Below are positions 15,444 to 34,589 of a stretch of DNA of 49,357 nucleotides, piece by piece. The DNA lies in IMG/VR virus record IMGVR_UViG_3300044613_001473, positions 1-49,357 of that record; one strand, 5' to 3'. The position numbers and the translations under genes are program-made. The notes under the pieces were generated by a model, which saw only the letters and a program-made list of their open reading frames with translations, was not told where the DNA came from and ran no database searches. The number at the start of each line of letters is the position of its first letter. Position 1 is the stretch's first letter. Source of the DNA: a virus.

Positions 15444-16928
15444 ATGAAATTCTATACTAATGTGTTTTATACAGGATCAAGTATCCTGTGTCGTGAATAT
15501 GAAGACGGCAAGTCAAACATGGTGAGAGACAACTTCTCACCATGTGTCTTTTTGCCCACACAGAAACCAAGACAACAAAAGACTGTTGATGGCCGTTCCG
15601 TAGAGCCAATATTCTTCAATAATGTCTTTGAGATGAATGAATTCAAGGAAAAGTATTCAGGCATCGATAGATTTGAGATTCATGGAGACATTAACGGTGA
15701 ATACCAATATATGGGAGAAAAGTATGAGAACGACTTTCCTTATGATCCACAATTGATCAAGATCATGTATATTGATATTGAAACAACAGCAGAGAATGGA
15801 TTCCCTAATGTAGATAATCCCATAGAAAAAGTGACGGTCATTAGCACAATCATGGGTAATGAGAAGAAGGTATTCTGTCTTGGCAAGTTCACGCCAAAGA
15901 CAGATATCGAAGTCCATGATTTTGATGACGAGCAAGATTTGCTTCTTTCATTCTGTGAGTATATGAACCATGCTCGACCCGATATAATGAGCGGATGGAA
16001 CATTAAGTTCTTCGATATTCCGTACCTTGTAAATCGTTGCTCTAGACTCCTTGATGAAAAGGAAGTCAAATATCTCTCTCCTTGGGGAATAATCAAGAAG
16101 AAGATGGTTGAGAAGAACAACGAAGACCATACTACATTTGAATTGGTCGGTATATCGGTCATGGATTATTATGATCTCTATAAGACATTCACATATGTAA
16201 AACAAGAGTCTTATTCGCTCAACCATATTGCATATGTTGAACTTGGCAAGGAAAAGATCGACTACTCTGAGTATGAGACGATTCGTGATTTCTACACTCA
16301 GAACTTCCAGAAGTTTGTTGAGTATAATATTGTTGACTGTGAACTGGTGTTGGAACTAGAGAACAAAATGCGGCTGATGGAACTTGCCATTTCACTCGCA
16401 TATTCAGCCAAGGTCAATTTCGTTGATGTATTCTCACAGGTCCGTACATGGGATGCTATCATATACAATTACTTAAAGCCACAAAATATCATCATTCCAC
16501 CAAGAAAGCAAGGAAAGAAAGATTCGCAGTATGCGGGAGCCTATGTAAAAGATCCACAGGTCGGAATGCATGATTGGATTCTTTCATATGATGTTAATTC
16601 TCTTTATCCATCATTGATTATCCATCTGAACATTTCCCCTGAGACATTACAGAAGAAAAATTTCATCGGTAAGATCAACATAGATGATATTATTCGCAAT
16701 GATAGAAAGTCTACTACCTTCGAATATCTGAACGAAGCCAAGGAACTTAATTGCACTATTGCTGCGAATGGCACAATGTACACAAAGAAAAAAATTGGGT
16801 TTCTTCCCGAACTTATGGATAAGATGTACAAAGAAAGAAAGCATTATAAGGATCTCATGATCAAGGCAGAAAAAGATCTTGAAGCGGTAAAGCACGAAAT
16901 CCAAAGAAGGGGCTTGACAATCAAATGA
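15444..16928 (+). CDS. 43A: DNA polymerase (T4 gp43-like), N-terminal half: exonuclease, motif A and part of fingers
   Basis: The 494 residues align with the first 55% of T4/RB69 gp43. ExoI is YIDIETT (D111, E113), ExoII is GWNIKFFDIPYLV (D191), ExoIII is YNIVDCE (D298) and polymerase motif A is SYDVNSLYPSLII (D383). The protein stops in the first fingers helix (MYKERKHYKDLM, then EIQRRGLTIK). Motifs B and C are absent; they are encoded at 33480-34589. Alone it should keep 3'-5' exonuclease folds but cannot polymerise. No intein N-segment or intron-like sequence follows the last codon. Confidence 0.95.
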   Translation: MKFYTNVFYTGSSILCREYEDGKSNMVRDNFSPCVFLPTQKPRQQKTVDGRSVEPIFFNNVFEMNEFKEKYSGIDRFEIHGDINGEYQYMGEKYENDFPYDPQLIKIMYIDIETTAENGFPNVDNPIEKVTVISTIMGNEKKVFCLGKFTPKTDIEVHDFDDEQDLLLSFCEYMNHARPDIMSGWNIKFFDIPYLVNRCSRLLDEKEVKYLSPWGIIKKKMVEKNNEDHTTFELVGISVMDYYDLYKTFTYVKQESYSLNHIAYVELGKEKIDYSEYETIRDFYTQNFQKFVEYNIVDCELVLELENKMRLMELAISLAYSAKVNFVDVFSQVRTWDAIIYNYLKPQNIIIPPRKQGKKDSQYAGAYVKDPQVGMHDWILSYDVNSLYPSLIIHLNISPETLQKKNFIGKINIDDIIRNDRKSTTFEYLNEAKELNCTIAANGTMYTKKKIGFLPELMDKMYKERKHYKDLMIKAEKDLEAVKHEIQRRGLTIK

Positions 16929-16941
16929 TAATTGATATAAT
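16914..16941 (+). promoter_or_regulatory. sigma70-type promoter at 3' end of 43A
   Basis: TTGACA, 16-nt spacer, perfect TATAAT. It overlaps the last codons of the polymerase half and ends 3 to 6 nt before the ATG ATG of the SPOUT methyltransferase, again implying a leaderless mRNA. The spacer carries a small dyad (ATCAA/TTGAT). Confidence 0.8.
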
Positions 16942-16944
16942 GGT

Positions 16945-17496
16945 ATGATGGAAAACGATACCAAGAATGTTATCGACTACTTCAAGTATTGGACAACCGA
17001 AGCAATCAAGGCCGAGTTGGACACCAAACGGCATAATTACACGGTGATTGCAAGTAATCTTGAGAACGATTTCAACATTGCAACCCTGATTCGCAACTCA
17101 AACGCCTTTCTCGCAAAGGAAGTTTGGGTTTACGGTAACAAGCAATATGATCGTCGTGGCACGGTCGGAACACATCACTACACAAATCTCAAGCATGTCA
17201 AGACGATTGATAATGTTATGGAAGAACTGAAAAATCTTCGCAATGAATATATTGATTTGAAGATTGTAGGAATGGACAATATTCCAGGCTCAATCAATAT
17301 CAATCATTATTCGTGGCCTAAGTTTGCCCATACTGTTATGATTTTTGGTCAGGAGCAGAATGGTATTCCACAGGAACTTCTTGACTTGTGTGACGATGTT
17401 GTGTATATTGAGCAGTACGGAAGCGTTCGTAGTCTCAATGTAGGAACTGCGAGTGGAATCGCAATGTATGATTATTGTAATAAGGTGTTGAACTAA
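16945..17496 (+). CDS. SPOUT-family (SpoU/TrmH/TrmL-like) RNA 2'-O-methyltransferase
   Basis: The 183-residue protein has the three SpoU motifs: NDFNIATLIRNSNAF (motif 1), VMIFGQEQNGIP (motif 2) and QYGSVRSLNVGTASGIAMYDY (motif 3), which form the trefoil-knot SAM site. By sequence style (NKQYDRRGTVGTHHY, VGMDNIPGSI) it resembles TrmH-type enzymes I associate with actinobacteria. Family members methylate ribose in tRNA; TrmL acts at the wobble base of tRNA-Leu(UAA) and (CAA), both of which this phage encodes. A promoter at its start codon shows it is independently expressed. The second ATG (16948) is an equally good start. Confidence 0.85.
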   Translation: MMENDTKNVIDYFKYWTTEAIKAELDTKRHNYTVIASNLENDFNIATLIRNSNAFLAKEVWVYGNKQYDRRGTVGTHHYTNLKHVKTIDNVMEELKNLRNEYIDLKIVGMDNIPGSININHYSWPKFAHTVMIFGQEQNGIPQELLDLCDDVVYIEQYGSVRSLNVGTASGIAMYDYCNKVLN

Positions 17497-17708
17497 TGAA
17501 ATCTAAAGTAAGAATCGTGAAGCGAACCTATAGGAATGGCAAAATCTTATATGTCATTCAGAGTAAAACTATGTTCTTTCCTTGGAAAGATGTTCTTAAG
17601 CCCCGCACCCTCGGATCGCTGCTCTGTTCCGAAACCTTAGAGGAAGCGCAGGAGATCCTGCGTCAGTTAGATAAACCTTATTTCAAGGACGAGGTGGTGT
17701 GGCCATGA
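17496..17708 (+). CDS. hypothetical protein (70 aa)
   Basis: A basic 70-residue protein coupled by ATGA to the methyltransferase. It looks like a small beta-hairpin domain (VRIVKRTYRNGKILYVIQSK) followed by an amphipathic helix (ETLEEAQEILRQL), a layout seen in phage proteins that bind other proteins. No family recognised. Confidence 0.5.
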   Translation: MKSKVRIVKRTYRNGKILYVIQSKTMFFPWKDVLKPRTLGSLLCSETLEEAQEILRQLDKPYFKDEVVWP

Positions 17709-17971
17709 GCAATGAAGATATTCAAAACAAAGTTGATGTGGCTATGGTAAAAGCCACATACGAACAAAAAATCAAGCAGTTGAAAGCAGATCACAAGAAA
17801 CAGATTAAAGATCTACAACAACTGCATCGAACTGAAATAATGGTCGAAAAAAATAATACAGAATACTACAAAAGAAAAGTAGAAGACATTATGGAAAGTT
17901 TTCGTCCTTTCTTTAGAATAGCAAGCGAACTTGGCAAGATAGATTCTTCCAATGATACCAGGGATGATTAA
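17705..17971 (+). CDS. hypothetical coiled-coil protein (88 aa)
   Basis: The start at 17705 overlaps the previous stop (ATGA). Residues about 10-60 are a continuous charged helix (TYEQKIKQLKADHKKQIKDL) likely to form a coiled coil. The C-terminus contains MESFRPFFRIASELGK. No known domain. One of a run of small early-type ORFs. Confidence 0.5.
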   Translation: MSNEDIQNKVDVAMVKATYEQKIKQLKADHKKQIKDLQQLHRTEIMVEKNNTEYYKRKVEDIMESFRPFFRIASELGKIDSSNDTRDD

Positions 17972-17973
17972 AT

Positions 17974-18162
17974 ATGAATCAACATTTGGAACTTGGACTT
18001 CTTCGACTTCGTAATCTGATCTGCCAACAGGAGATGTTGGTCGAGGGCGCGAAACGCGAAACGCTCCTTGGAGGATGGACATACAACTGGAACCAGCCTC
18101 ACGCCGAACTGCAAGAGGAAATCGATAATCTGATCGCGGATTTAAAGCATTTGGATGATTAA
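17974..18162 (+). CDS. hypothetical protein (62 aa)
   Basis: A short helical acidic protein (MNQHLELGLLRLRNLICQQE, ending EEIDNLIADLKHLDD), 2 nt after the previous stop. Two helices separated by GGWTYNWNQPH. The local DNA is more GC-rich than its neighbours, as in the later RDEARREVC genes. No function can be assigned. Confidence 0.45.
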   Translation: MNQHLELGLLRLRNLICQQEMLVEGAKRETLLGGWTYNWNQPHAELQEEIDNLIADLKHLDD

Positions 18163-18171
18163 AAGGAATAT

Positions 18172-18513
18172 ATGAGAACCATAATCGCAGGATCAAGAGA
18201 TATAACAGACAAACAATTAGTTGAAACTGCTATATCAAAATCAAAGTTTTTAATCACCGCTGTTGTGTGTGGAGAAGCCCGTGGAGTTGACTCTATTGGT
18301 AAAGATTGGGCAATTAGGAATAATATTCCTGTTCATAGTTTCCCTGCAAATTGGACTTTACATGGAAAAAGTGCAGGATATATTCGTAATGCAGAAATGG
18401 CAGAAAATGCAGATGCACTTATCGCGGTATGGGATGGCAAGTCGCGTGGTACAAAAATGATGATTGATCTTGCACATAAAAAAAATGTTAAAGTATTTGT
18501 TTGGATGGTTTAA
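18172..18513 (+). CDS. YspA-like SLOG family protein (DUF2493)
   Basis: The 113-residue protein matches the compact SLOG/DUF2493 Rossmannoid fold: TIIAGSRDITD (first strand and loop), VVCGEARGVDSIG (GGArGaD-type motif), FPANWTLHGKSAGYIRNAEM and AVWDGKSRGTKMMI. SLOG domains bind nucleotides or nucleotide-derived ligands, and some work as sensors in conflict systems. It has AAAGGAATAT before the ATG. A ligand sensor or nucleotide-processing role beside the phage's NAD+ salvage genes is speculative. Confidence 0.8.
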   Translation: MRTIIAGSRDITDKQLVETAISKSKFLITAVVCGEARGVDSIGKDWAIRNNIPVHSFPANWTLHGKSAGYIRNAEMAENADALIAVWDGKSRGTKMMIDLAHKKNVKVFVWMV

Positions 18514-18515
18514 AT

Positions 18516-19271
18516 ATGGATGTAACATATTCTTATAAAAACAAAATGAGTGATGGTGCAAATAAACTCATTAATAATATTATTTTCAGTGTTTCACCAA
18601 CGCCAAAGTGGGCATATTGTGCGGGTGGTGCTATAGACACGAAAGTTTTTCCTATTAATGATTCAGATTTGACTAAATCTAGAGTCATGGTTCCTCTTTC
18701 TTTGGATTACGATGACCCTGATTATCGTTATTTTTCTAGTAATAAAGATATAAAACTAATGAAAGTAGAGTATTATGAGTGTTATTTACAAAAGATTTCT
18801 AGACTTGTGTATCATACAATCAGAGATAGCATTTATCTTTATGATGTCACCTTTATAGATAGTAGTTTTTTGTTATATTCTGATGTTCAACGAATTCCAT
18901 CTAAAAATCCACAGATCTACGAGATGTGTTGGTATGGTCGTGAGATCTATAAGATAGATCAAAGAGTTAATACAAACGATAACTTTGCAGAGAACATACC
19001 ACAAGAAAGCATCAAGACCGTGGAACCAAAACCAAGTAAAACAGAATCAAATAATGTGTGTGGGTATTCTTACTTTGTGGATCATCTTTCTGCTTTGAGT
19101 ATTCAAAAGGACTACAACAAAGAGAAAAACAGAATGGTTCGTTTGAATATTAAGGAAAATACGGATCATAATTCTATACAGAGCGTTACCATTTCCGACA
19201 AAGAAACCTTGAAGGATATTATCATGAGACTAAGAGAAATGGAAAGTTGGATGGGGGAAGATAAGCGATGA
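18516..19271 (+). CDS. hypothetical protein (251 aa)
   Basis: The start at 18516 lies 2 nt after the SLOG gene. The sequence is mixed alpha/beta: residues 1-45 include GANKLINNIIFSVSPTPKWA, the middle has aromatic-rich strands (YYECYLQKISRLVYHTIRD) and an IYEMCWYGREIY segment, and the C-terminus is a charged helix. It resembles uncharacterised proteins of T4-like phage early regions, but I do not recognise a family. Overlaps the next start by 4 nt. Confidence 0.45.
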   Translation: MDVTYSYKNKMSDGANKLINNIIFSVSPTPKWAYCAGGAIDTKVFPINDSDLTKSRVMVPLSLDYDDPDYRYFSSNKDIKLMKVEYYECYLQKISRLVYHTIRDSIYLYDVTFIDSSFLLYSDVQRIPSKNPQIYEMCWYGREIYKIDQRVNTNDNFAENIPQESIKTVEPKPSKTESNNVCGYSYFVDHLSALSIQKDYNKEKNRMVRLNIKENTDHNSIQSVTISDKETLKDIIMRLREMESWMGEDKR

Positions 19272-20026
19272 CAGAAAAAGAAATTGATGAAGCCATCAAA
19301 GATATAGAGTTGCATGGTGCTTTTTATGATATGACTGAAAAAAGCATTAATATAATTAAAAAACTCCTTCAGCAGAGAGACGATGCTCGTCGTGAAGTCT
19401 GTGTCTATGAAGCGGTAGAAAGAAATCGTGGAAAGATAGTTCAGACTGATGATATTGCAGAGGAGAGGGGATGGCAATATCTTTACGACAAAGATGTTAT
19501 TCCTTCTACCCAAGGATGTAATAGTGATGATGTGTGTCCATTCTGTACAAAGATGACAAATTCGTTTGCTGCGAATCCTTCGGACTGGGCTGTGACTTTG
19601 CCGATTGACGGAAACGGCAGGACCAACAAATGCCATGTCGGATGCGTGATGCAGAAGATTAACGCGGCGAACTCAGTGGCTTCGGCTAGGTTGGCTGCTT
19701 TGAAGACGGTGCAAGACATCGGTCAGGAGATTGATCCTGCCCACGACAACCTTGCGCTCACCCCGCAGCCGATCTCCACCGCTCCGAAGGACGAAACCCC
19801 GATCCTCGTATGGGACAGGGAGTGGAACGCATGGGTGGCGGCGAGGTGGCTTGACGGCAGTTGGTACGGCGACCATGAGCGTTTGTGGAAAGGCAACTGT
19901 CTAGACAAAGGAAACCCACAATGGTGGCTCCCGATGCCACCTGAGCCTACCAAGATGGCGAAGGAACCACCCGCACATGTTGGTCCGATGGTGAATGCAC
20001 CGAATTTCGTAGTGGAGGAAGAATGA
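19268..20026 (+). CDS. chimeric protein: RDDARREVC module plus DUF551-like C-terminus
   Basis: The 252-residue protein has an AT-rich N-terminal part (residues 1-95) with an RDDARREVCVYEA helix and AEERGWQYLYD, a module shared with ORFs at 20542 and 23724. A Cys pair (CPFC) and CHVGC follow, which could bind zinc. Residues about 165-235 (QPISTAPKDETPILVWDREW, then PQWWLPMPPEP) match the DUF551 pattern common in enteric phages. The second half is clearly more GC-rich than the rest, suggesting a recombinant origin. Confidence 0.55.
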   Translation: MTEKEIDEAIKDIELHGAFYDMTEKSINIIKKLLQQRDDARREVCVYEAVERNRGKIVQTDDIAEERGWQYLYDKDVIPSTQGCNSDDVCPFCTKMTNSFAANPSDWAVTLPIDGNGRTNKCHVGCVMQKINAANSVASARLAALKTVQDIGQEIDPAHDNLALTPQPISTAPKDETPILVWDREWNAWVAARWLDGSWYGDHERLWKGNCLDKGNPQWWLPMPPEPTKMAKEPPAHVGPMVNAPNFVVEEE

Positions 20027-20238
20027 TGAAGAACTATCTGGTGTTTGCAGGATCTAATTACTATCCTATAGGTGGATTTGGAGACTTCATAGGTGGTTAT
20101 TCATCTTTTGAAGAAGCGGATAAAGCAGCCCATTCAGTGGATAATGTGGATTGGCAAGAGATTACCCTTTACGACCAAGAGACAGGAACACATAAGACAT
20201 GGTCGTGGAGTCATTTTGGTAAAAAGTGGGAGGAATAG
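20023..20238 (+). CDS. hypothetical protein (71 aa)
   Basis: Overlaps the previous stop (ATGA-type). A small protein rich in Gly and aromatic residues (YLVFAGSNYYPIGGFGDFIG, then SFEEADKAAHSV), compatible with a compact beta-alpha fold of the type FxxxxEADKAA seen in phage early ORFs. No function known. Confidence 0.5.
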   Translation: MMKNYLVFAGSNYYPIGGFGDFIGGYSSFEEADKAAHSVDNVDWQEITLYDQETGTHKTWSWSHFGKKWEE

Positions 20239-20240
20239 CA

Positions 20241-20549
20241 ATGATGACCAATAGGGTTGCGCTAATGGCGAAGAGGCTACAATACACGGCAAGGTTCAGG
20301 GATGTCCTCTTGGAGAAATCCGTCTTTGATAATCCACATGAGGCATTGGATTCAGTGCTGAAGTTCATGGTCGGAATAGTTGCTAAGTACGAGAGTGAAT
20401 GGGGTGTCCCCGTGTGGAACCTGATCCCGCCTAGCCATGTGGCTGAGATCATCATATTGAGAAAGCGCGGAGAGATTGCCGCAAGATCGGTCGAACCGCT
20501 GTTCGTCTATTTGTGTACGGGAAAGAAACTAGAGGAAAACAATGAATGA
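20241..20549 (+). CDS. hypothetical protein (102 aa)
   Basis: The start at 20241, 2 nt after the previous stop, is preferred over an in-frame upstream codon. The product is basic and helical (RVALMAKRLQYTARFRDVLL), with higher GC than flanking genes. It ends in ATGA-type overlap with 20542. No domain recognised. Confidence 0.45.
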   Translation: MMTNRVALMAKRLQYTARFRDVLLEKSVFDNPHEALDSVLKFMVGIVAKYESEWGVPVWNLIPPSHVAEIIILRKRGEIAARSVEPLFVYLCTGKKLEENNE

Positions 20550-20775
20550 AACTATAAAGAAAATTGACGCTTATCTTGAGCAATTTGTAGGTTCCACGAT
20601 GGAACAGATTATTATGCAGGAAGCGAAGAGGGAGATTGAGAAATTGATCAAGGAGCGCGACGAGGCGCGGCGGGAAGTCTGTGAGTTGTGTACGAAAGGT
20701 GAGTGTATTCCGATCCCGCCAAGGGAGATCGCTGAACAGTTAGGCTGGGACTGCTTCAAGGAGAATAACAAATGA
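20542..20775 (+). CDS. small protein with RDEARREVC/RGW module (77 aa)
   Basis: A helix (TMEQIIMQEAKREIEKLIKE) leads into RDEARREVCELC, a Cys-containing loop with IPIPPREIAEQ, and ends LGWDCFKE. This is almost exactly the C-terminal module of the 23724 ORF (RDEARREVCLARSN, ending RGWNCFDE) and the N-terminal part of 19268. It is a candidate stand-alone copy of the module. Overlaps both neighbours by 4-8 nt. Confidence 0.55.
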   Translation: MNETIKKIDAYLEQFVGSTMEQIIMQEAKREIEKLIKERDEARREVCELCTKGECIPIPPREIAEQLGWDCFKENNK

Positions 20776-21179
20776 ATGAGCAAGATGCAATTGCAAGAAT
20801 CAAAAGACTTTCTGCAAACATCAACTGTGCCGATGAGATTGTAGATCTAATTGAGCGACTGATCAAAGAGCGTGACGAAGCCATCAATAAATACAATGAA
20901 CTCGTAAAGAGTCCTGTTCTTGCATTTGTCAAGAACAAGTGGCTATCTAATGCCACAAGCATTGAAATGGTTTTTACGCATGAGTTTATGCGTGAATGTC
21001 CTGATGTTCTTGTAGAGCAGATCGCATCAGATATCAAACACGCAATGATGACTGAAATGAATAAGAGTTCAACGACAGCAGAATGGACTCCTGTTCGCTT
21101 TGGTTCTGCGTTAAAGAAAACAATGGACAAGTATGAACCCATTATGAAAAAGATTTCTGAATTGGATGGTGAAAAATGA
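20772..21179 (+). CDS. hypothetical protein (135 aa)
   Basis: The N-terminus (DAIARIKRLSANINCADEIV, then LIERLIKERDEAINKYNELV) resembles the helix that precedes the RDEARREVC module, but the Cys part is missing. The rest is helical with no recognised domain. ATGA coupling on both sides. Confidence 0.5.
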   Translation: MNEQDAIARIKRLSANINCADEIVDLIERLIKERDEAINKYNELVKSPVLAFVKNKWLSNATSIEMVFTHEFMRECPDVLVEQIASDIKHAMMTEMNKSSTTAEWTPVRFGSALKKTMDKYEPIMKKISELDGEK

Positions 21180-21397
21180 CAGACAAAGATAAAATTGAAA
21201 TCTTAGAAAAAACAGTGACGGAATTAAAGATTCTATTGGATCATTATCGTGCTATTACTGCTCAGTATGAGAAGTTGTCGAAACCCACATATATTCCTTA
21301 TACTGAACCGTATCGTAAGCAATTGGATCTCCCTTTTTACCCCACCTGGCCAAACATAAAATTGTGTCCTGACACGACATCAAAATCTCATGAATAA
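21176..21397 (+). CDS. hypothetical protein (73 aa)
   Basis: An N-terminal coiled-coil helix (DKIEILEKTVTELKILLDHY) is followed by a Pro/Tyr-rich tail (KPTYIPYTEPYRKQLDLPFY). It overlaps the preceding stop. A peptide-like tail after a coil suggests a small binding protein. Nothing more can be said. Confidence 0.45.
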   Translation: MTDKDKIEILEKTVTELKILLDHYRAITAQYEKLSKPTYIPYTEPYRKQLDLPFYPTWPNIKLCPDTTSKSHE

Positions 21398-21686
21398 CAA
21401 ACCTAACAACGAACCCAATAAAGAAAAAATTCTAAAGTTTTTTCCAGATGGAGAATTTTATACACTTGATGGTTTCGATGAAGCCATAATTGGTATCGCA
21501 TCACAAGCAGGGCAATATTTCCTTGTTGTATATTCTGATCCTAAAATTATTGAAATACTGACCAAGAGGGATGGAATGACTCTTGAAGAAGCAGTAGAAT
21601 ATGCTGAATTTAATATTTTTGGAGCGTATTTTGGTGAAAAAACTCCAATCATAATGACTTCTATGGAGGACATGAATGAATTCTGA
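21390..21686 (+). CDS. hypothetical protein (98 aa)
   Basis: A small acidic alpha/beta protein: FFPDGEFYTLDGFDEAIIGI, YFLVVYSDPKIIEIL, then MTLEEAVEYAEFNIFGAYFG and TPIIMTSM. The pattern (strand, helix, strand, acidic helix, strand) is common in phage proteins described only as conserved hypotheticals. Overlaps both neighbours. Confidence 0.5.
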   Translation: MNNKPNNEPNKEKILKFFPDGEFYTLDGFDEAIIGIASQAGQYFLVVYSDPKIIEILTKRDGMTLEEAVEYAEFNIFGAYFGEKTPIIMTSMEDMNEF

Positions 21687-21933
21687 AGAACCATTTAATC
21701 CAAAAGATAATCAATTTGAGGATGTGTGTATGCGAAACATGTTATATCAAGTTGAAATAATTAAACTCAAGGAAACAATCACCGATCTAGAAAAAAGAAT
21801 CGGTGATGCTTCTATTACTCTATATGATTATGATGGATATTATGATGAGAAAACTAAAAAAGGCAGTGTAGAAGGACTTGCATCTGTGATTAAAGACGCT
21901 TATACTATGCTTCAAGGAAGATTTTGGGAATAA
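21676..21933 (+). CDS. hypothetical protein (85 aa)
   Basis: An acidic helical protein with a coiled segment (MLYQVEIIKLKETITDLEKR). Its stop lies 2 nt before the rtcB start, so the two are probably co-translated from one mRNA. Unknown function. Confidence 0.45.
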   Translation: MNSEEPFNPKDNQFEDVCMRNMLYQVEIIKLKETITDLEKRIGDASITLYDYDGYYDEKTKKGSVEGLASVIKDAYTMLQGRFWE

Positions 21934-21935
21934 TC

Positions 21936-27017: not shown

Positions 27018-27019
27018 AC

Positions 27020-27804: not shown

Positions 27805-27821
27805 TTTTTTAAGTTTTCATC

Positions 27822-27850: not shown

Positions 27851-27867
27851 GATACTAGACTTTTTAT

Positions 27868-27941
27868 GCGGGTGTATCGGTCCTGTCTTCTAAACAGGAT
27901 ACCGTAATTGGACTATGTAGGTTCGATCCCTACCACCCGTG
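27868..27941 (+). tRNA. tRNA-Arg (UCU), D arm missing, extended variable region
   Basis: Acceptor GCGGGTG/CACCCGT, anticodon arm CCTGT-CTTCTAA-ACAGG (anticodon TCT) and T arm GTAGG-TTCGATC-CCTAC are canonical. Only 7 nt (TATCGGT) separate the acceptor from the anticodon stem, so no D arm can form. Instead 18 nt (ATACCGTAATTGGACTAT) lie between the anticodon and T arms, including a D-loop-like AATTGG. CGGT could pair with ACCG to extend the anticodon helix. Total length stays normal (73 nt plus discriminator). Confidence 0.7.
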
Positions 27942-27944
27942 CTT

Positions 27945-28892
27945 ATGCAAGAAAATACAATGTATACAAAAAACAACAGTGTTGGTGTGATTGTTGGGCG
28001 ATTTCAGACCCCATACCTCCACGATGGACACCGCAAATTGATTGATACTGCAATGAAAAATCATTATAAGGTATTGATCTTTATTGGTGTATCTTCGACA
28101 AAGAATACGATTCGCGATCCTCTTGATTACGATACTCGTATGATGATGATTGCTTCATATGTCTCTAGACAAATGGAGACATGTATTGTAGAAATTATTC
28201 CAATTCACGATAATCAGCACGATCATGTTTGGTCTGCTAATTTGGACAAAGAAATTCAAAATAGAATCAAGCACAACGATTCCGTTGTTCTTTATGGAGG
28301 GCGTGATTCTTTTGTCGGGGGATATACTGGAGGTTATAGGTCAGTATTGATCAATGAAGTTCCCGATGTTTCTGCAACTGATATTCGAAACAGGTCTTGT
28401 ATTGCCAGAGATACGGAAAGTTTTCGTCATGGCATGATTTACGCATCACAGCAGCAATATCCAATTGCATATCAGACAGTAGATATTGCAGTCATTAATG
28501 ACAATGATGAGATTCTAATGATTCAAAAAGAAGGTGACGATTACGAGTATCGTTTCGTAGGTGGATTTAGTGATCCAAATAGTCCTTCACTTGAATATGA
28601 TGCTCGTAGAGAATTACAAGAAGAATGTGGAGTTAATGTTAATATTGGTGTAGCCCATTATGTTTCAAGTAGATTGATTGATGATTGGCGATATAAAAAT
28701 AACAAAAACTGTAAGATCAAAACTGCTTTTTTTGTGGCAAAGCATCTTTGGGGTAATGCATCTCCCATGTCGGAGATTACAAAGTGCGAATGGATTCATA
28801 TTAGTATGTTGAGCAAAAATGTAGTAGATGAACATTTGGCGTTAGCAAGTGATTTGGAACACTGGTTTCTACACAATAAGAATAAACTTTAA
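27945..28892 (+). CDS. natV: bifunctional NMN adenylyltransferase / Nudix hydrolase (NatV/NadM-Nudix type)
   Basis: The 315-residue protein has an N-terminal nucleotidyltransferase domain (GVIVGRFQTPYLHDGH with the HxGH motif; YGGRDSF; VSATDIRNR) that adenylates NMN to NAD+, and a C-terminal Nudix domain (VGGFSDPNSPSLEYDARREL, then QEECGV) probably acting on ADP-ribose or NAD-derived compounds. The fusion matches the vibriophage KVP40 NatV plan. The ATG at 27945 is 3 nt after tRNA-Arg with no ribosome site; 27960 is an alternative. It pairs with the NAMPT gene that follows. Confidence 0.88.
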   Translation: MQENTMYTKNNSVGVIVGRFQTPYLHDGHRKLIDTAMKNHYKVLIFIGVSSTKNTIRDPLDYDTRMMMIASYVSRQMETCIVEIIPIHDNQHDHVWSANLDKEIQNRIKHNDSVVLYGGRDSFVGGYTGGYRSVLINEVPDVSATDIRNRSCIARDTESFRHGMIYASQQQYPIAYQTVDIAVINDNDEILMIQKEGDDYEYRFVGGFSDPNSPSLEYDARRELQEECGVNVNIGVAHYVSSRLIDDWRYKNNKNCKIKTAFFVAKHLWGNASPMSEITKCEWIHISMLSKNVVDEHLALASDLEHWFLHNKNKL

Positions 28893-28908
28893 ATAAAGGA
28901 TTTATATA

Positions 28909-30276
28909 ATGAACGATAATTTTATCATGGCAACGGACTCGTATAAGGTCACTCATCATCAGATGTATACACCCAATACGACTGAAATTTACTCGTATTT
29001 TGAATGCCGAAACGGAGCAAAGTTCAATGACATTTGCTTCTTTGGTCTTCAGTATATCATTACACGATATTTTACGGCTCCTATTACGCAGTATAATATT
29101 GATCAGGCAGAGGCATATTTTGACACCCACTTTGGAAAGGATGTATTCAACAGAAAGGGATGGGAATATATCCTGAATAAGCACAATGGTTATCTTCCAC
29201 TTGAGATTAGGGCAATTCCAGAAGGTACTTGGGTGACTCCAGGAACTCCTCTTATTACTGTCCGAAATACTGATCCAAATTGTGCATGGCTCACCAACTA
29301 CGCCGAAACCATTCTTTCACAGGTTTGGTATCCGACCACTGTGGCGACTCTCAGCGGCAATATCAAGAAGTTGATTTCTGGTTATTTTGACGAGACTTGC
29401 GATGGTGGTCGTAGCGATCCTTCGATTTCCTTCATGCTCCATGACTTTGGATTCCGTGGTGCTTCTTCACTGGAAACTGCTGGAATTGGTGGAATGGCTC
29501 ATCTGGTCAACTTTATGGGTACTGATACTCTTGAGGCTCTTCGGTATGCTTATAGGTATTATATGGGCGATACTGTTGGATTCTCAGTCCCTGCCACGGA
29601 GCATAGCATCATGACCTCAGATGAGAATGGAGAAGAGGCAGTCCTCAAGCGGCTTCTTGATCAGTATCCAAGCGGTATTCTGAGTGTTGTTGCCGATTCT
29701 TACGACATCTACAACTTCGTAGCAGAATATATGAAGAAGTATAAGGATCAGATTCTTTCCCGTGATGGTGTATTTGTTGTTCGTCCAGATTCGGTGACTC
29801 CGAAGCATCCGACTCCAGAGGATCAGGTTCTTTGGATTTGCAATACGCTGAAGGATATTTTTGGTGCGGAAAAGAATGCCAAGGGTTTCTATGTGATCAA
29901 TCCAAAGGTCAAGGTTCTTTGGGGAGATGGTATTGATATGAATGGAATTGATAGAATTCTTACAATTCTGAAGGAGAATGATTTTGCTGCTTCAAATATC
30001 GCGACATTCGGTATGGGTGGAGGCTTGCTTCAGAAGGTGAATCGTGATACACTACGCTGTGCCTTCAAGTGTTCTAATCGAACCTATACGAAGGATGGAG
30101 CGGAAGTAAGTATGCCAGTGCAGAAGAACCCTCTCGACAAGAGTAAGGCTTCTAAGGCTGGAAAGTTCGATATTGATCGTGTCGTGTATATTAAAGAAAT
30201 GAATGATTATGAGCCGACTATTAATGCTCAAGATTTTAGTGATGTTCGGAGTAGAGCAAGTAAGATGTTTGTGTGA
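28909..30276 (+). CDS. nadV: nicotinamide phosphoribosyltransferase (NAMPT)
   Basis: The 455-residue protein is full length for the family. It opens MATDSYKVTHHQMYTPNTTE and contains ECRNGAKF, the LHDFGFRGASSLE region, the GTDTLEALRYA segment, SVPATEHSIM, VVADSYDIYNF and FVVRPDSVTP, all NAMPT landmarks for binding PRPP and nicotinamide. It makes NMN, which the upstream NatV-like enzyme converts to NAD+. The two genes form a complete salvage route from nicotinamide, 16 nt apart and co-transcribed. Confidence 0.94.
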   Translation: MNDNFIMATDSYKVTHHQMYTPNTTEIYSYFECRNGAKFNDICFFGLQYIITRYFTAPITQYNIDQAEAYFDTHFGKDVFNRKGWEYILNKHNGYLPLEIRAIPEGTWVTPGTPLITVRNTDPNCAWLTNYAETILSQVWYPTTVATLSGNIKKLISGYFDETCDGGRSDPSISFMLHDFGFRGASSLETAGIGGMAHLVNFMGTDTLEALRYAYRYYMGDTVGFSVPATEHSIMTSDENGEEAVLKRLLDQYPSGILSVVADSYDIYNFVAEYMKKYKDQILSRDGVFVVRPDSVTPKHPTPEDQVLWICNTLKDIFGAEKNAKGFYVINPKVKVLWGDGIDMNGIDRILTILKENDFAASNIATFGMGGGLLQKVNRDTLRCAFKCSNRTYTKDGAEVSMPVQKNPLDKSKASKAGKFDIDRVVYIKEMNDYEPTINAQDFSDVRSRASKMFV

Positions 30277-30292
30277 TAAATAGAATAGGAAC

Positions 30293-30365
30293 ACTCCTTT
30301 AACTCAGCGGCTAGAGAGTTGCTTTTACACAGCAAATGTCACAGGTTCGAATCCTGTAGGGAGTA
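30293..30365 (+). tRNA. tRNA-Val (UAC)
   Basis: Acceptor ACTCCTT/AGGGAGT, D arm CTC/GAG, anticodon arm TTGCT-TTTACAC-AGCAA (anticodon TAC), T arm ACAGG-TTCGAAT-CCTGT, A73. First of four closely packed tRNAs. Confidence 0.92.
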
Positions 30366-30368
30366 TTT

Positions 30369-30439
30369 GCAGGTATGATGTAGTGGTAACATAAGAGTTT
30401 TCCAAACTTTTCTCATGGGTTCAAATCCCTTTACCTGCA
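30369..30439 (+). tRNA. tRNA-Gly (UCC)
   Basis: Perfect acceptor GCAGGTA/TACCTGC, D arm ATG/CAT, anticodon arm AGAGT-TTTCCAA-ACTTT (anticodon TCC), T arm ATGGG-TTCAAAT-CCCTT with one mismatch. Confidence 0.9.
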
Positions 30440-30443
30440 CTAT

Positions 30444-30517
30444 GGTCGGATGCCAGAGTGGCCTAATGGGGTGGATTGCAAATCCACTATTCAAAGGTTC
30501 AAATCCTTTTCCGATCT
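30444..30517 (+). tRNA. tRNA-Cys (GCA)
   Basis: Acceptor GGTCGGA/TCCGATC, anticodon arm GTGGA-TTGCAAA-TCCAC (anticodon GCA), T arm AAAGG-TTCAAAT-CCTTT, discriminator T as in bacterial tRNA-Cys. Confidence 0.92.
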
Positions 30518-30524
30518 TTATTTT

Positions 30525-30595
30525 GTGGATTGAGTAGGTTGGTAATACATGACGCTCATAATGTCAAAGGCTTGGTTCGATTCCAAGAGTCCACA
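30525..30595 (+). tRNA. tRNA-Met, elongator-like (CAU)
   Basis: Acceptor GTGGATT/AGTCCAC, D arm GTA/TAC, anticodon arm TGACG-CTCATAA-TGTCA (anticodon CAT), T arm CTTGG-TTCGATT-CCAAG, A73. A paired first base and no GGG/CCC in the anticodon stem exclude an initiator. A lysidine-modified tRNA-Ile(CAU) remains possible. Confidence 0.85.
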
Positions 30596-30611
30596 TTTTT
30601 GCTCAGTCAAG

Positions 30612-30757
30612 GCAGCGGAAAGATAAACCGCAAGGCCGTATAGGATCGTCGGTTGCAAACGGCGATTGAATTGGGTAGTTTCTTTTGTCTTTCTAAAGAC
30701 ACACAATCCCGTAGGGGTTGGGAGAAACTATTCTTATGGGTGTGATACCCACGCTGC
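30612..30757. ncRNA. candidate multi-branched structured RNA
   Basis: The segment is closed by GCAGCG (30612-30617) and CGCTGC (30752-30757). Inside are a 7-bp hairpin (30645-30651/30660-30666), a 9-bp stem (30675-30683/30723-30731) enclosing two further hairpins (30686-30691/30696-30701 and 30704-30710/30714-30720), and a 5-bp hairpin (30737-30741/30747-30751). It follows tRNA-Met and overlaps the 3' end of the GIY-YIG gene. Strand is uncertain, since stems exist on both. It could be a stable phage RNA like T4 species C/D, a degenerate group I intron, or a complex terminator. Confidence 0.45.
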
Positions 30758-31267
30758 GCTTTTTGCTTCCCTCAAAGCCTTTCTCTGAAATTTTATTTTT
30801 TCTTTATTTTCCGCTCTCCAAGCCCGTCTTTTGGCCTTGACTTTTTCCTTATTTGCTTGATATTCAGCCCTTCTTTGGGCCTTGACTTTTTCCTTATTTG
30901 CTTCATATCTAGCCTTATTGTATATCTTATGATAAATCTTTATGTCGTTCTTAGTTAGACTTTTCGAACATCCTTCCCCACCAAAGGTCAAATTATATCC
31001 ACCAGAACCATGTTTTATGTGTGTTCGATACAACCAAATATAATGATGTTCCATATGATTTAATGTGTGATATTTGTCTTCTGATTCATATATTGGTTCA
31101 ATTGTAAAGGAATCAGTCCCATATTTTTTGATAGCATGGTGTAGAGGATATTTTGGCCTTTTATTGGATTCGTATATATGTTCTTTCCATCGGTCTGTGA
31201 TAGATTGACTGGTATATCCGACATATACAGGTGTATTGTCTTTACGAACGAGATATATAATATGCAT
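30734..31267 (-). CDS. GIY-YIG homing endonuclease
   Basis: The 177-residue protein has an N-terminal GIY-YIG nuclease domain (IIYLVRKDNTPVYVGYT, then RWKEHIYES, and the catalytic Glu region EHHYIWLYR), followed by a basic tail of repeated ANKEKVKAxRRA units (about residues 115-165) that probably contacts DNA, as in Seg/I-TevI-type linkers. It is transcribed against the tRNA array behind a late promoter. Such free-standing enzymes spread by cutting related phages at conserved sites. Confidence 0.88.
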   Translation of the reverse strand: MHIIYLVRKDNTPVYVGYTSQSITDRWKEHIYESNKRPKYPLHHAIKKYGTDSFTIEPIYESEDKYHTLNHMEHHYIWLYRTHIKHGSGGYNLTFGGEGCSKSLTKNDIKIYHKIYNKARYEANKEKVKAQRRAEYQANKEKVKAKRRAWRAENKEKIKFQRKALREAKSAAWVSHP

Positions 31268-31326
31268 GGAATGTTACCTTTCTGTGCCATGCCCTTGGGT
31301 GCTGATTACACCGCAGGGGTCTTTTA

Positions 31327-31334
31327 TATTTATA
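31327..31334 (-). promoter_or_regulatory. T4-type late promoter for the GIY-YIG gene
   Basis: TATAAATA on the minus strand, 59 nt upstream of the ATG. The leader holds a GGTG/CACC hairpin before a GAAAGG ribosome site. Confidence 0.6.
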
Positions 31335-31361
31335 TTTTTATAGATTTACGACACTTGTCAC

Positions 31362-31389
31362 TTGACATGATAAAAAATTATGGTATACT
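31362..31389 (+). promoter_or_regulatory. sigma70-type promoter
   Basis: TTGACA, 16-nt spacer, TATACT. It leaves a leader of about 22 nt with GAAAGAGG before the ATG at 31418, unlike the leaderless promoters elsewhere. Likely also drives tRNA-Tyr. Confidence 0.75.
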
Positions 31390-31417
31390 GATACATCTTA
31401 GAAAGAGGTTTTAAATT

Positions 31418-31741
31418 ATGCAAACCGCAGTAGTTATTTTAAGTGTTATTAATTGTGTACTTGTACTGATATGTGTGATTTTTTGGGATATAAACAGTAA
31501 TTATAGAAAAGAAAAGAAACGAAAAATTGAGCAGGAAGACGAAATGAGATTTCGCAGATTGGAAAGTGATATTCGTTATCTTTTTACAATGCGACAGGTT
31601 ATTGATTATCTACAAAAAGAAATTGAATCTAATCGTATGTCAGATCTAAAAGGACATAATCAACTTCTTGATGAAATTCAAAGCGTTACAAATTTCGTCA
31701 AAGAGAATTTTGTAGAGAAGAAGAAAAAGACATCTAAATAA
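31418..31741 (+). CDS. membrane-anchored coiled-coil protein (107 aa)
   Basis: An N-terminal transmembrane helix (TAVVILSVINCVLVLICVIF, residues 3-22) is followed by a basic stop-transfer (YRKEKKRK) and a long charged helix (about 30-100) likely to form a coiled coil. Topology would be N-out, C-in. Ribosome site GAAAGAGG. Similar small anchored coils in phages are usually uncharacterised early proteins. It lies 8 nt before tRNA-Tyr. Confidence 0.55.
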   Translation: MQTAVVILSVINCVLVLICVIFWDINSNYRKEKKRKIEQEDEMRFRRLESDIRYLFTMRQVIDYLQKEIESNRMSDLKGHNQLLDEIQSVTNFVKENFVEKKKKTSK

Positions 31742-31749
31742 TAAACTGA

Positions 31750-31831
31750 GCGTCAGTGCCAGAGTAGCAAATGGGGGAGACTGTAAATCTCTTGGCTTCG
31801 GTCTTCGTAGGTGCAAGTCCTACCTGACGCA
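31750..31831 (+). tRNA. tRNA-Tyr (GUA)
   Basis: Perfect acceptor GCGTCAG/CTGACGC, anticodon arm GGAGA-CTGTAAA-TCTCT (anticodon GTA), a long class II variable arm as expected for Tyr, T arm GTAGG-TGCAAGT-CCTAC. The T loop has G in place of the usual T55. Confidence 0.9.
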
Positions 31832-31847
31832 TTTAAAGGAATATAAC

Positions 31848-32192
31848 ATGAGTACTAAAGAATTTTTCAACATTGAAAGTAAAAGATGCACAGGTCGTAC
31901 CACAAGAATGCTTATTCAAGCATTGAAATATGCAAGTGAAGGTAAGAAGGTTTTGGTTATTGGTGCGACTGTAGTACAGACCAAAAGTCTTGAGAATCAA
32001 GTAAGATATTTGAATGTTTTTCCCAATAAGATTGAGTTCAAGTCAATCCACGAATCATTAAATTATAGAGTTTTTGACTTTGATTTTCCTAGCCAATATT
32101 ATAATGAAGTTCTGTTTGATCATTATGCTATTGAGTCATATTCTGCCTTTAAGAAAATGCTATGGGAGATGAATAGGTTCGATGCACCGTAA
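31848..32192 (+). CDS. small P-loop-like protein (114 aa)
   Basis: The N-terminal segment RCTGRTTRMLIQALKYASEG followed by KKVLVIGATVVQT fits a shortened Walker A type loop with the helix and next strand, a form common in small phage proteins related to helicase/terminase NTPases. The remaining fold is too short for a motor ATPase and lacks a clear Walker B. Good AAAGGAATAT site. It overlaps the phosphoesterase gene by 11 nt. Confidence 0.5.
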   Translation: MSTKEFFNIESKRCTGRTTRMLIQALKYASEGKKVLVIGATVVQTKSLENQVRYLNVFPNKIEFKSIHESLNYRVFDFDFPSQYYNEVLFDHYAIESYSAFKKMLWEMNRFDAP

Positions 32193-32766
32193 TGTTTACA
32201 TCACCAGTGATTCACATTTTGGTCATAAAAACATTGTTGAATTTAAGGTAAATGGCAAGATAATGAGGCCGTTTGCCGATTATATTGAACATGATGAGTT
32301 CTTGATTGAAAAGTGGAATTCTGTGGTTAAGCCCCACGACAAGGTTTATCACTTGGGTGATGTATGCATTTCCAGAAAATCCTTGCAACTGTTGGATCGT
32401 CTTAATGGTAAGAAAGTCCTCATCAGAGGAAATCACGACATCTATCATTTGGAAGATTATGCAAAATATTTTAAGGATGTGAGAGCGTGTCATAAATTAG
32501 ACGGGTGTTTACTCACTCATATTCCTGTTCATAAGTCGTGCATGGAAAGGTTTGGTTGTAATATTCATGGACACACACATGCAAATATAATCATGAAAGT
32601 GTCTGATATTGGTAGCATTGATGTTGATCCCGATTATTTGAATGTGTGTGTTGAGCATACAAACTATACCCCCTTGCATCTTGATGAAGTTTTTGATAGA
32701 ATCAAAAAACAGGGTGGAAGCACAAAAATGCTTTCTGAGCGTAGATCGACTGTTTTTTACGAATAA
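32182..32766 (+). CDS. calcineurin-like metallophosphoesterase
   Basis: The 194-residue protein has the full set of metallophosphoesterase motifs: YITSDSHFGHKN (DxH), VYHLGDVC (GDxx), IRGNHDIY (GNHD), LLTHIPVH and IHGHTHAN (GHxH). These bind a two-metal centre. Phage members may hydrolyse nucleotide phosphodiesters or cyclic phosphates. A role in processing 2',3'-cyclic phosphate or signalling nucleotides near RtcB and tRNA genes is possible but not shown. Confidence 0.88.
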   Translation: MHRNVYITSDSHFGHKNIVEFKVNGKIMRPFADYIEHDEFLIEKWNSVVKPHDKVYHLGDVCISRKSLQLLDRLNGKKVLIRGNHDIYHLEDYAKYFKDVRACHKLDGCLLTHIPVHKSCMERFGCNIHGHTHANIIMKVSDIGSIDVDPDYLNVCVEHTNYTPLHLDEVFDRIKKQGGSTKMLSERRSTVFYE

Positions 32767-32778
32767 ATAGAATAGTAA

Positions 32779-32849
32779 CGGAAGTGTAGTGTAATAGGAA
32801 CATACCGCATTTGGGGTGCGGAGTCGCTGTGCAAATCAGACATTTCCGA
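32779..32849 (+). tRNA. tRNA-Pro (UGG), weak T stem
   Basis: Acceptor CGGAAGT/ATTTCCG, D arm GTG/CAT, anticodon arm CCGCA-TTTGGGG-TGCGG (anticodon TGG), A73. The T stem CGCTG/CAGAC has only three pairs, and the loop is TGCAAAT with G at position 55. Confidence 0.8.
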
Positions 32850-32853
32850 TTTT

Positions 32854-32925
32854 GTCCTCATAGTATAACGATAATTACCCATGATTTGTAATCTTGAGAT
32901 CTGAGTTTAATTCTCAGTGGGGACT
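32854..32925 (+). tRNA. tRNA-Thr (UGU)
   Basis: Acceptor GTCCTCA/TGGGGAC, D arm GTA/TAC, anticodon arm CATGA-TTTGTAA-TCTTG (anticodon TGT, one T-T mismatch), T arm CTGAG-TTTAATT-CTCAG. Loop position 56 is T, not C, and the D loop lacks the usual GG pair, so the elbow contact is altered on both sides. Confidence 0.82.
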
Positions 32926-32927
32926 TT

Positions 32928-33137
32928 ATGAAATTTGGTCTATATTTTAAAAATTCACACGGTGATTATGATTGGATGAGAGAATCTCACGCGGATAAAT
33001 CTATTTCTGTGTGGAATAGTGAGAAGGAAGCCACCGCATGGAAGAAAAAACACACCCATACACCGAATAAATATGTTGTGACGGAAGTCACAGAAGAAAT
33101 TATTATTGCGGACAGAAATGAAACCTTCGATACCTGA
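32928..33137 (+). CDS. hypothetical protein (69 aa)
   Basis: The ATG is 2 nt after the tRNA-Thr 3' end with no ribosome site, so tRNA processing would release a leaderless mRNA. The protein (MKFGLYFKNSHGDYDWM, then EKEATAWKKKHTHTPNKYVV) matches a small strand-helix-strand type seen in phages as conserved hypotheticals. The C-terminus overlaps the next gene by 20 nt. Confidence 0.5.
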   Translation: MKFGLYFKNSHGDYDWMRESHADKSISVWNSEKEATAWKKKHTHTPNKYVVTEVTEEIIIADRNETFDT

Positions 33138-33441
33138 TAATTTTACCCCTATTCAAAGAGTGTGTGCTGATTATATCGAAAGCAATATTCGAATGGTTTC
33201 AGAGGAACACTATGCTCAGTCGTGGATGGTAGAAGTTGATTATTGGCTCTATGCTGAGACAATAAACCAAAAATCTATCCATCTTGAGGATTATATCTTA
33301 GAAAACATGAAAGTTTGCATGGATACAATAGGTGGTTGGATTGTTTGGGACAATGAAAACCATGAACCTGTTTTTATGGCTAATGACGATGTGGTTAGTC
33401 AAATAGAGTATATCAAAGAACAACGAAAAAACAAGGCTTGA
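33118..33441 (+). CDS. hypothetical protein (107 aa)
   Basis: The start at 33118 (ATG) is preferred over an upstream TTG at 33106. An acidic, aromatic-rich alpha/beta protein (MVEVDYWLYAETINQKSIHL, then GGWIVWDNENHEPVFM). No family recognised. Its stop lies within the -35 of the promoter for the second polymerase half, so it is the last gene of the island. Confidence 0.45.
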   Translation: MKPSIPDNFTPIQRVCADYIESNIRMVSEEHYAQSWMVEVDYWLYAETINQKSIHLEDYILENMKVCMDTIGGWIVWDNENHEPVFMANDDVVSQIEYIKEQRKNKA

Positions 33442-33466
33442 CATTGTAGTACTAGTGTGCTACAAT
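33438..33466 (+). promoter_or_regulatory. sigma70-type promoter for polymerase half 43B, with dyad
   Basis: TTGACA, 17-nt spacer, TACAAT. The predicted start (about 33473) is 7 nt before the ATG at 33480. ATTGTAG (33443-33449) and CTACAAT (33460-33466) form a perfect 7-bp inverted repeat spanning the spacer and -10, which looks like an operator. Confidence 0.8.
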
Positions 33467-33479
33467 GTTGTGTTATTAT

Positions 33480-34589
33480 ATGGATGTAACTAAATTGACA
33501 GATCAGGAGTTATTACTACTCCATAATGACTTGGAATACGATATCTCAAAGTATCACAATTTTCAGTTGTGTCGTAAAATCCAATTAAATTCCGCCTACG
33601 GTGCTATTGGAAACCAATATTTCCGATTTTACAACACATCTATGGCAGAGGCGATTACCATTTCTGGTCAGATGACTATTCAGTGGATTGCCCAGAGAGT
33701 GAATGAATATCTCAATAAGATTGCCCAGACTACCGATGTAGACTTTGTGATTGGTTCGGACACCGATTCGATCTATATCACGGTCAATAATATCATTCAA
33801 AAATACGCATCAGAAAAATCAACCCAAGAGTTGATTGATTATGTGGATGATATGTCCAATCAGGTTATTCATCCATTCATTAGTAAGTCTCTAGACCGTC
33901 TTGCGGTTGATCTAAACGCAGACGAGAACCGCATCGTGATGGGTAGAGAGGTGATCGCGAACAGAGGCGCGTGGACGGCCAAGAAGCGGTATCTCCTGAA
34001 TGTATGGGACAAGGAAGGGGTTCGCTACGAGAAGCCCAAGCAGAAGATCGTAGGGCTAGAGACGAACCGCTCCTCGACTCCAGAGGTTGTCAGGAAGCAA
34101 CTGAAGAAGTGCATTGGTATTATCCTGAATGATGGAGAAAGCGAACTCAGAAAAGAAATCAAGAAGTTCAAATCAGACTTCATGAAGATTGATTATAGTA
34201 AAATTGCTTTCCCCCGTGGAGTGAATAATTTAGACGAATATTCTGATTCTGACACGATCTATAAGAAGAGTACTCCGATTGCTGTAAAAGCGGCTTTATT
34301 GTACAATTACTATGTCAAGAAACTTGATCTAGAGATGAAGTATCCACTTGTACAAGAAGGCGAAAAGATTAAGTTCCTACATTTGAAGCAGCCGAATCCT
34401 GTTGCTGGGGTGCAAGGAAAAGACGCGGTCATTGGTTTTATAACCACTCTTCCAAAGGAATTTGGATTGGATAAGTATATCGATAGAGAAGCACAATATG
34501 AAAAGTCATTTTTTCATCCACTCAGCACTATCGTTGATGCTATTGGGTGGAATCTGTCGGAAACAACGAATATAGAATCATTATTTTAA
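33480..34589 (+). CDS. 43B: DNA polymerase (T4 gp43-like), C-terminal half: fingers/palm/thumb
   Basis: The 369 residues align with the last 40% of T4/RB69 gp43. Motif B is KIQLNSAYG (K33), motif C is GSDTDSIY (D94, D96), followed by the KKRYLLNVWD, GLETNRSSTP and thumb segments, ending SLF like the clamp-binding tail of gp43. The ATG at 33465 lies inside the -10 box, so 33480 is the start. The first 30 residues are the second fingers helix. It must pair with 43A to rebuild the catalytic Asp pair. It precedes uvsX, as gene 43 does in T4. Confidence 0.95.
   Translation: MDVTKLTDQELLLLHNDLEYDISKYHNFQLCRKIQLNSAYGAIGNQYFRFYNTSMAEAITISGQMTIQWIAQRVNEYLNKIAQTTDVDFVIGSDTDSIYITVNNIIQKYASEKSTQELIDYVDDMSNQVIHPFISKSLDRLAVDLNADENRIVMGREVIANRGAWTAKKRYLLNVWDKEGVRYEKPKQKIVGLETNRSSTPEVVRKQLKKCIGIILNDGESELRKEIKKFKSDFMKIDYSKIAFPRGVNNLDEYSDSDTIYKKSTPIAVKAALLYNYYVKKLDLEMKYPLVQEGEKIKFLHLKQPNPVAGVQGKDAVIGFITTLPKEFGLDKYIDREAQYEKSFFHPLSTIVDAIGWNLSETTNIESLF

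Follow-up and report, generated by a model that had tools for sequence, protein, structure and literature searches.

The 49,357 b of IMG/VR virus record IMGVR_UViG_3300044613_001473, a metagenomic contig from a T4-like virus of bacteria that is here called the window, contain a DNA polymerase gene (gene 43) that is broken into two coding regions, 43A and 43B, with an accessory island between them. Together they encode a T4-like family B DNA polymerase whose chain is interrupted at the fingertip loop. We consider it probable that this gene 43 is a working T4-like polymerase made from two separately translated polypeptides, and that the break originated with a mobile cassette and was enlarged by cargo later. 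From the comparisons described below we infer that the halves assemble in trans, in what order the events took place and what part endonucleases played in them. The window shows an essential replication gene that tolerates being broken, with 16.5 kb of cargo now lodged as an island at the break, and the intermediate sizes found in relatives offer a stepwise view of an accessory island growing inside a core gene.

Two halves of one polymerase

The coding regions concerned, the island and the adjoining replication gene are as follows.

15444–16928, plus strand: 43A, N-terminal half of a T4-like DNA polymerase (exonuclease, motif A, fingers helix N); from the open reading frame (ORF), Pfam, structure alignment and AlphaFold model
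16929–33479, plus strand: accessory/tRNA island between the polymerase halves, 16,551 nt
33480–34589, plus strand: 43B, C-terminal half (fingers helix P, motifs B and C, thumb); from the ORF, Pfam, structure alignment and model
34599–35630, plus strand: uvsX, which adjoins 43B and is followed by homologues of the gp41 helicase and gp61 primase

43A is an uninterrupted ORF of 494 aa, in which Pfam recognises the exonuclease domain and the first half of the PolB domain, and its alignment to RB69 gp43, a protein of solved structure, reaches approximately residue 509. The 43B ORF spans 33465–34589; the ATG at 33480 agrees best with relatives and gives a product of 369 aa, which aligns from about residue 555 of RB69 gp43 (540 in T4 gp43) to 887. 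This product starts with fingers helix P, contains motif B (KIQLNSAYG) and motif C (DTDS), and matches the later part of PolB in Pfam. Each half is a highly significant match rather than a chance one, and the window contains a single match to 43B. The exonuclease domain and PolB motifs A, B and C are all present and in order, and only a fingertip loop is missing relative to gp43. Since the break falls in this exposed loop, between helix N and helix P as in split gp43 of the phage 25/44RR type, no active-site element is lost.

An initial annotation of the window had described a polymerase split in the fingers, with 43A and 43B 16,551 nt apart, and the ORFs, Pfam and the RB69 alignment bear this out. 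Alignments and models likewise agree with its placing of the 43A terminus in the first fingers helix and of the 43B start just before motif B, with motif C inside 43B. Its estimate of about 860 residues with nothing essential lost compares with 494 + 369 = 863 counted and a full set of catalytic motifs, and it was right that the halves lie in order on one strand, with 43B next to uvsX.

The AlphaFold model of 43A ends in a 36-residue helix (453–488) and that of 43B opens with a 35-residue helix (8–42). Modelled separately, each half has RB69 gp43 as its top fold match in the PDB (TMq 0.83 for 43A and 0.81 for 43B). Residues 359–393 of the isolated 43A model, around motif A, are disordered, with a predicted local distance difference test score (pLDDT) below 50; such disorder would be expected if 43B completes the palm sheet, although it falls short of proof.

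In split lineages strong purifying selection acts on each of the halves: the ratio of non-synonymous to synonymous substitution rates (dN/dS) is 0.02–0.14 for each, in pairs of split relatives with unsaturated dS. Longer records of relatives (15–190 kb) hold one gene 43 each, and the separate 43A and 43B of Aeromonas phage 25 co-purify and are active together (PMC2988022). Given the phage 25 precedent and the separate folding of the halves, non-covalent re-association is the likely arrangement. 43A would contribute the N-terminal, exonuclease and motif A part with fingers helix N, 43B would contribute fingers helix P, motifs B and C and the thumb, and the two would be held together by antiparallel fingers helices and the palm sheet, with no covalent bond. 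Intact motifs and low dN/dS support the earlier suggestion that the halves are still functional.

The break among relatives and a circulating cassette

IMG/VR was scanned with each half and both halves were then located per locus; the contigs and loci obtained are designated by L numbers. The initial annotation had proposed looking among related contigs for unsplit genes or smaller insertions, and both exist (157 fused loci; gaps from ~60 nt). Besides many fused genes there is a graded set of split ones, all at the same break, with gaps from ~60 nt to 16.5 kb: 60–370 nt in L182, L025, L079, L081 and others, 0.7 kb in L233 and L241, 1.6 kb in L018 and L162, 2.7–4.6 kb in L016, L054, L017, L011 and L163, 8–9 kb in L002–L004, and 16.5 kb in the window, the largest. 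This gradation supports the earlier idea of gene 43 as an insertion site in which cargo accumulated. The core of the island consists of tRNA-Leu/Gln genes and a SpoU methylase gene; the latter is accompanied by three tRNAs in L016, five in L018, L020 and L075, and eight in L011. In almost every island-bearing relative it is the first gene 3' of 43A, or near it, and it follows 43A directly or past a short insert in ~20 contigs. The island is still turning over, since L078 matches the window at 32840–40381 (99.96%) and at 30677–31387 (98%) and has no equivalent of 31388–32839. L003 and L004, identical at mostly 96–99%, are mosaic within the gap.

A tree of 72 concatenated 43A+43B sequences (a short search, with Shimodaira-Hasegawa-like approximate likelihood ratio test (SH-aLRT) supports only) places the window in a clade of seven split genes with tRNA islands (SH-aLRT 94), to which L003 and L163 also belong. 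This clade is nested in one of ten (SH-aLRT 100), nine split and one fused, whose additional members are L079, L081 and L166, the last being the fused one. Across the whole tree the split or fused state has to change seven times or more on branches with good support, so that splitting is recurrent or transferred; the split L233, with an endonuclease gene at the break, is sister to the fused L167. Between fixed anchors the fingertip measures 54–72 residues in 40 split loci, some of them near-identical (61 in the window), against a median of 36 in 157 fused loci. A motif at the head of 43B, [LMF][STK]xx[EDQKA]L, is present in all 40 split loci and in 1 of the 157 fused ones, and also in phage 44RR2.8t, which is distant on the tree. 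On the simplest reading of these sequences, break and long fingertip would move together as a module, by gene conversion. The occurrence of the break in several gene 43 lineages, always with a longer fingertip, and the tRNA and SpoU core of the island go beyond the initial annotation.

So does a GIY-YIG cassette that still circulates at the break site in relatives and probably involves hopping over a stop codon. Compared with L003 and L016, their near-identical counterparts, L004 and L017 have an additional GIY-YIG endonuclease gene (237 and 234 aa respectively) directly 5' of 43B (cassette locus 18187–19017 in L004 and 5190–6020 in L017), and the resumed 43B begins within the 3' end of that gene. 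Motif B of both reads GCN ATN GGT TAG GNA AY, a 5-nt insertion that places a stop right behind a Gly codon. Pattern scans of IMG/VR recovered the GGT TAGG site in L233, L226, L241, L244, L248, L254–L262, L264–L267 and others as well. Gene 43 of 27 contigs has the insertion, each contig with a different metagenome identifier, and a tighter form of the pattern occurs outside gene 43 in two contigs only. Ahead of the stop the Gly codon is always GGT (27 of 27), and the surrounding codons and the landing Gly codon (GGT, GGC or GGA) vary.

Most carriers of the site have a linked GIY-YIG gene, the endonucleases being 45–69% identical between lineages. No endonuclease was found in L259, which is split and has the site, or in L260 and L261, which have the site in an unsplit gene 43. 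Presence of the site changes at least seven times on the tree, and a five-member clade containing the window (97) includes the carriers L257 and L264; in the window itself motif B is uninterrupted and there is no such GIY-YIG cassette. Among cultured phages, matches to the GIY-YIG protein were all below 60% identity and mostly partial, and no cassette carrier was found.

The frame 3' of the stop is open to the C-terminus in every contig of sufficient length. It is also constrained (36 synonymous versus 3 non-synonymous changes between L226 and L248; dN/dS 0.115 between L017 and L237), although these pairs hardly differ in their upstream parts and may therefore have acquired the cassette recently. 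An open frame under constraint beyond the stop makes it probable that ribosomes hop from Gly codon to Gly codon. A plain −1 frameshift at GGTTAGG was rejected: by eye there is no slippery heptamer, and a −1 slip adds Leu-Gly, whereas a hop gives exactly YGAIGN. Also rejected was a further division of the gene, into three parts, through internal initiation at the TAG, as no start codon is seen by eye in the resumed frame just 5' in L004 and L017.

The GIY-YIG gene and the GGT TAGG site together would constitute a homing cassette that entails a short hop of the ribosome, by analogy with T4 mobA/gene 60. The cassette would comprise the GIY-YIG endonuclease, a broken long-fingertip gene 43 end with a new 43B start, and the 5-nt insertion (GGT TAGG N); the insertion would abolish the cutting site of the endonuclease, and ribosomes would hop from the Gly codon to the next Gly codon. 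We put at about even the chance that such a mobile cassette homes into motif B and splits gene 43 as it spreads within this group of T4-like phages, one descendant slot being the 16.5-kb island of the window.

A separate insertion of ~710 bp lies just past motif A of gene 43 in L031–L037, L083, L203 and L212. It was considered as a group I intron and rejected, as Rfam finds none in L035, L083, L203 and L212 and the insert encodes an HNH-like protein.

Contents of the island and competing explanations

The genes of the island, and three sigma-70-type promoter candidates at its borders and upstream of 43A, are listed in order.

14353–14381, plus strand: promoter-like site, 11/12 consensus match, upstream of the dUTPase-43A run, with hexamers and spacing the same as those 5' of 43B
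16914–16941, plus strand: sigma-70-type promoter-like site, 12/12 consensus match, overlapping the 43A stop and pointing into the island
16945–17496, plus strand: SpoU-family RNA 2'-O-methyltransferase, first gene 3' of 43A (Pfam SpoU, 2e-25)
18172–18513, plus strand: YspA/SLOG-family protein
21924–23315, plus strand: RtcB-type RNA ligase
24517–24664, plus strand: tRNA-Gln(UUG) and tRNA-Leu(UAA) (short variable arm) (ARAGORN, Rfam)
24638–25207, plus strand: HNH endonuclease ORF between two tRNA-Leu genes, both of which it overlaps as called; its actual start is probably further in
25198–25270, plus strand: tRNA-Leu(CAA) (short variable arm) (ARAGORN, Rfam)
27020–27090, plus strand: tRNA-Glu(UUC) (ARAGORN)
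27088–27711, minus strand: HNH endonuclease with helix-turn-helix
27868–27941, plus strand: tRNA-like gene (Rfam only)
27939–28892, plus strand: NMN adenylyltransferase-Nudix protein (NadM-like)
28909–30276, plus strand: nicotinate/nicotinamide phosphoribosyltransferase (NAMPT type)
30293–30596, plus strand: tRNA cluster Val, Gly, Cys, Met (ARAGORN)
31388–32839, plus strand: segment with tRNA-Tyr (31750–31831) and a phosphoesterase (32182–32766), absent from L078
32780–32925, plus strand: tRNA-like gene (32780–32848, Rfam) and tRNA-Thr (32854–32925)
33438–33466, plus strand: sigma-70-type promoter-like site, 11/12 consensus match (TTGACA-17-TACAAT), directly 5' of 43B

ARAGORN finds 10 tRNAs in the island and Rfam adds two (27868–27941 and 32780–32848). 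With 10–12 tRNAs, two HNH genes, RtcB, and the NadM-Nudix and NAMPT-type proteins, the island holds the tRNAs, endonucleases, RNA ligase and NAD salvage genes that the initial annotation had placed there. Assignment of the SpoU gene as TrmL, which would suit two tRNA-Leu genes, is unproven: the NCBIfam models for TrmH, RlmB and TrmL all score below cut-off, and TrmH-type structures are among the nearest solved relatives of the protein. The short-arm tRNAs (73–76 nt) with Leu anticodons UAA and CAA (24592–24664 and 25198–25270) also occur in L079, L081, L018 and L006; L003, L011 and L016 have a normal long-arm tRNA-Leu(UAA). The NadM-Nudix gene, the adjacent NAMPT-type gene (27939–30276) and RtcB may together restore NAD+ and repair tRNA, as a set of anti-defence type. 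Outside the island, 3' of the replication genes, an 856-aa ORF (41046–43616) matches a virion structural family at its C-terminal end only.

Nine promoter-like sites on the coding strand reach 11/12 or better, against none on the opposite strand; shuffled sequences give ~1 per strand. The site 5' of 43B lies within a 14-pair inverted repeat (33438–33470), and its -10 box ends 13 nt 5' of the preferred ATG, so a 43B transcript would be nearly leaderless.

The history that we propose has four steps. A mobile endonuclease cassette would first have imported an already broken long-fingertip allele; the endonuclease would then have been lost or displaced; tRNA genes, the SpoU methylase and HNH endonucleases would have occupied the slot; and cargo (RtcB, NAD salvage and others) would have built up to 16.5 kb, with the essential halves serving as conserved recombination arms. 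Several observations weigh against a working two-part polymerase with this origin. The window is a 49-kb fragment, and a second polymerase could lie elsewhere in the genome. The promoters are consensus matches only, and no clear Shine-Dalgarno sequence precedes 43B. The position of the fused L166 inside the split clade requires re-fusion or two separate splits. Finally, the smallest gaps of the clade, those of L079 and L081 (0.32–0.37 kb), contain a single tRNA-Leu(UAA) and no endonuclease, and the first insertion could therefore be a tRNA element.

This last observation favours an island that began with the entry of a tRNA gene, possibly accompanied by an HNH endonuclease, into an intact fingertip loop, the GIY-YIG cassette being later and separate. 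HNH genes among the tRNA genes of the window, and next to tRNA-Leu(CAA) in L010 and L012, point the same way. We regard this sequence of events as unlikely but deserving of serious attention: split genes of distant lineages all have the long fingertip and the 43B head motif, which suggests a single imported allele, and GIY-YIG cassettes occupy the same break in split genes with a fused sister (L233 beside L167). Alternatively, the split might be useful in itself, polymerase dosage being regulated through separate promoters, as the matching hexamers and spacing 5' of the 43A run and of 43B would suggest. This is improbable, however, since few relatives only have promoter-like sequence close 5' of 43B and the break is common to lineages with gaps of ~60 nt, where separate control is unlikely.

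That gene 43 is a decaying remnant, with another polymerase replicating the genome, would suit a window that is only a genome fragment, but dN/dS far below 1 in both halves, intact motifs and the single gene 43 in relatives' records make it very improbable. Slighter still is the likelihood that the halves are joined covalently through a split intein or trans-splicing introns. Both are known at phage polymerase genes (PMC6892783; the group I intron in phage 25 43B, detected by Rfam in the positive control L159), but neither 43A nor 43B has a domain beyond gp43-collinear sequence, no split-intein parts are present at the break, and Rfam finds no intron family in window positions 15000–36000 (E≤1), returning tRNAs and one sub-threshold hit only. 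An assembly artefact merging unrelated contigs, conceivable for a single metagenomic contig, is barely credible, because L078 independently joins island DNA (30677–31387) to 43B and uvsX and so confirms the right-hand junction, 43A-SpoU recurs in ~20 contigs, G+C is uniform across the window, and the same break recurs in relatives with gaps of graded size.

Comparison with known systems

Split gp43 with adjacent halves that reassemble is already known from Aeromonas phage 25; new here are the distance between the halves, the series of island sizes and the evidence for break and long fingertip as a moving module, and possibly also the GIY-YIG stop-hop cassette as a mobile element. If true, the hop would make programmed ribosome bypassing a recurrent mobile device at an active-site motif of the replicative polymerase, and one that can be tested with reporters. 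In 2010 T4 gene 60 was regarded as apparently the only case of such bypassing (PMC3014915). In the T4 gene 39-mobA-gene 60 region a homing endonuclease splits an essential gene and a stop following a Gly codon is bypassed to a downstream Gly codon, as would happen in L004, L017, L233, L226 and others (PMC3014915, PMC5009743). The cassette of the relatives, which the window lacks, differs in the gene affected, in having a GIY-YIG rather than an HNH endonuclease, and in a gap of 5 rather than 50 nt, which makes a stem-loop impossible, unlike in T4 gene 60.

Other systems share single elements with the window. In phage Aeh1 a homing endonuclease gene, mobE, splits the essential gene nrdA and the halves are functional (PMC2988022), but the gene is a different one, with a single insertion and no island. 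The T4 tRNA cluster with segB has an endonuclease gene among phage tRNA genes (PMC2988022), although outside the polymerase gene. Pseudomonas phage MIJ3 has PolB in two ORFs flanking an HNH gene (PMC6892783), with intein motifs of which none were seen in the window. Split phage polymerases in other families (PMC7824862, PMC10580990) are different systems.

The closest counterparts are Aeromonas phages 25 and 44RR2.8t, whose split gene 43 has the same fingertip break and 43A/43B order as the window. The initial annotation had referred to gp43 of some Aeromonas phages as split by mobE, which does not hold, as the phage 25 split is associated with a GIY-YIG (seg) gene (PMC2988022; DQ529280), situated between the halves, and mobE belongs to nrdA of Aeh1. 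The halves of 44RR are ~50 nt apart and its 43B head motif matches the window type. In both phages, which are far from the window in the tree, the halves are adjacent or less than 1 kb apart, without a tRNA or cargo island; halves that are adjacent or separated by one homing endonuclease gene or a short spacer are likewise found in L233, L241 and L182, but not in the window (16,551 nt). The split gp43 of the window is thus a relative of that of phages 25 and 44RR and presumably works alike, differing by the distance between its halves and by the island that separates them.

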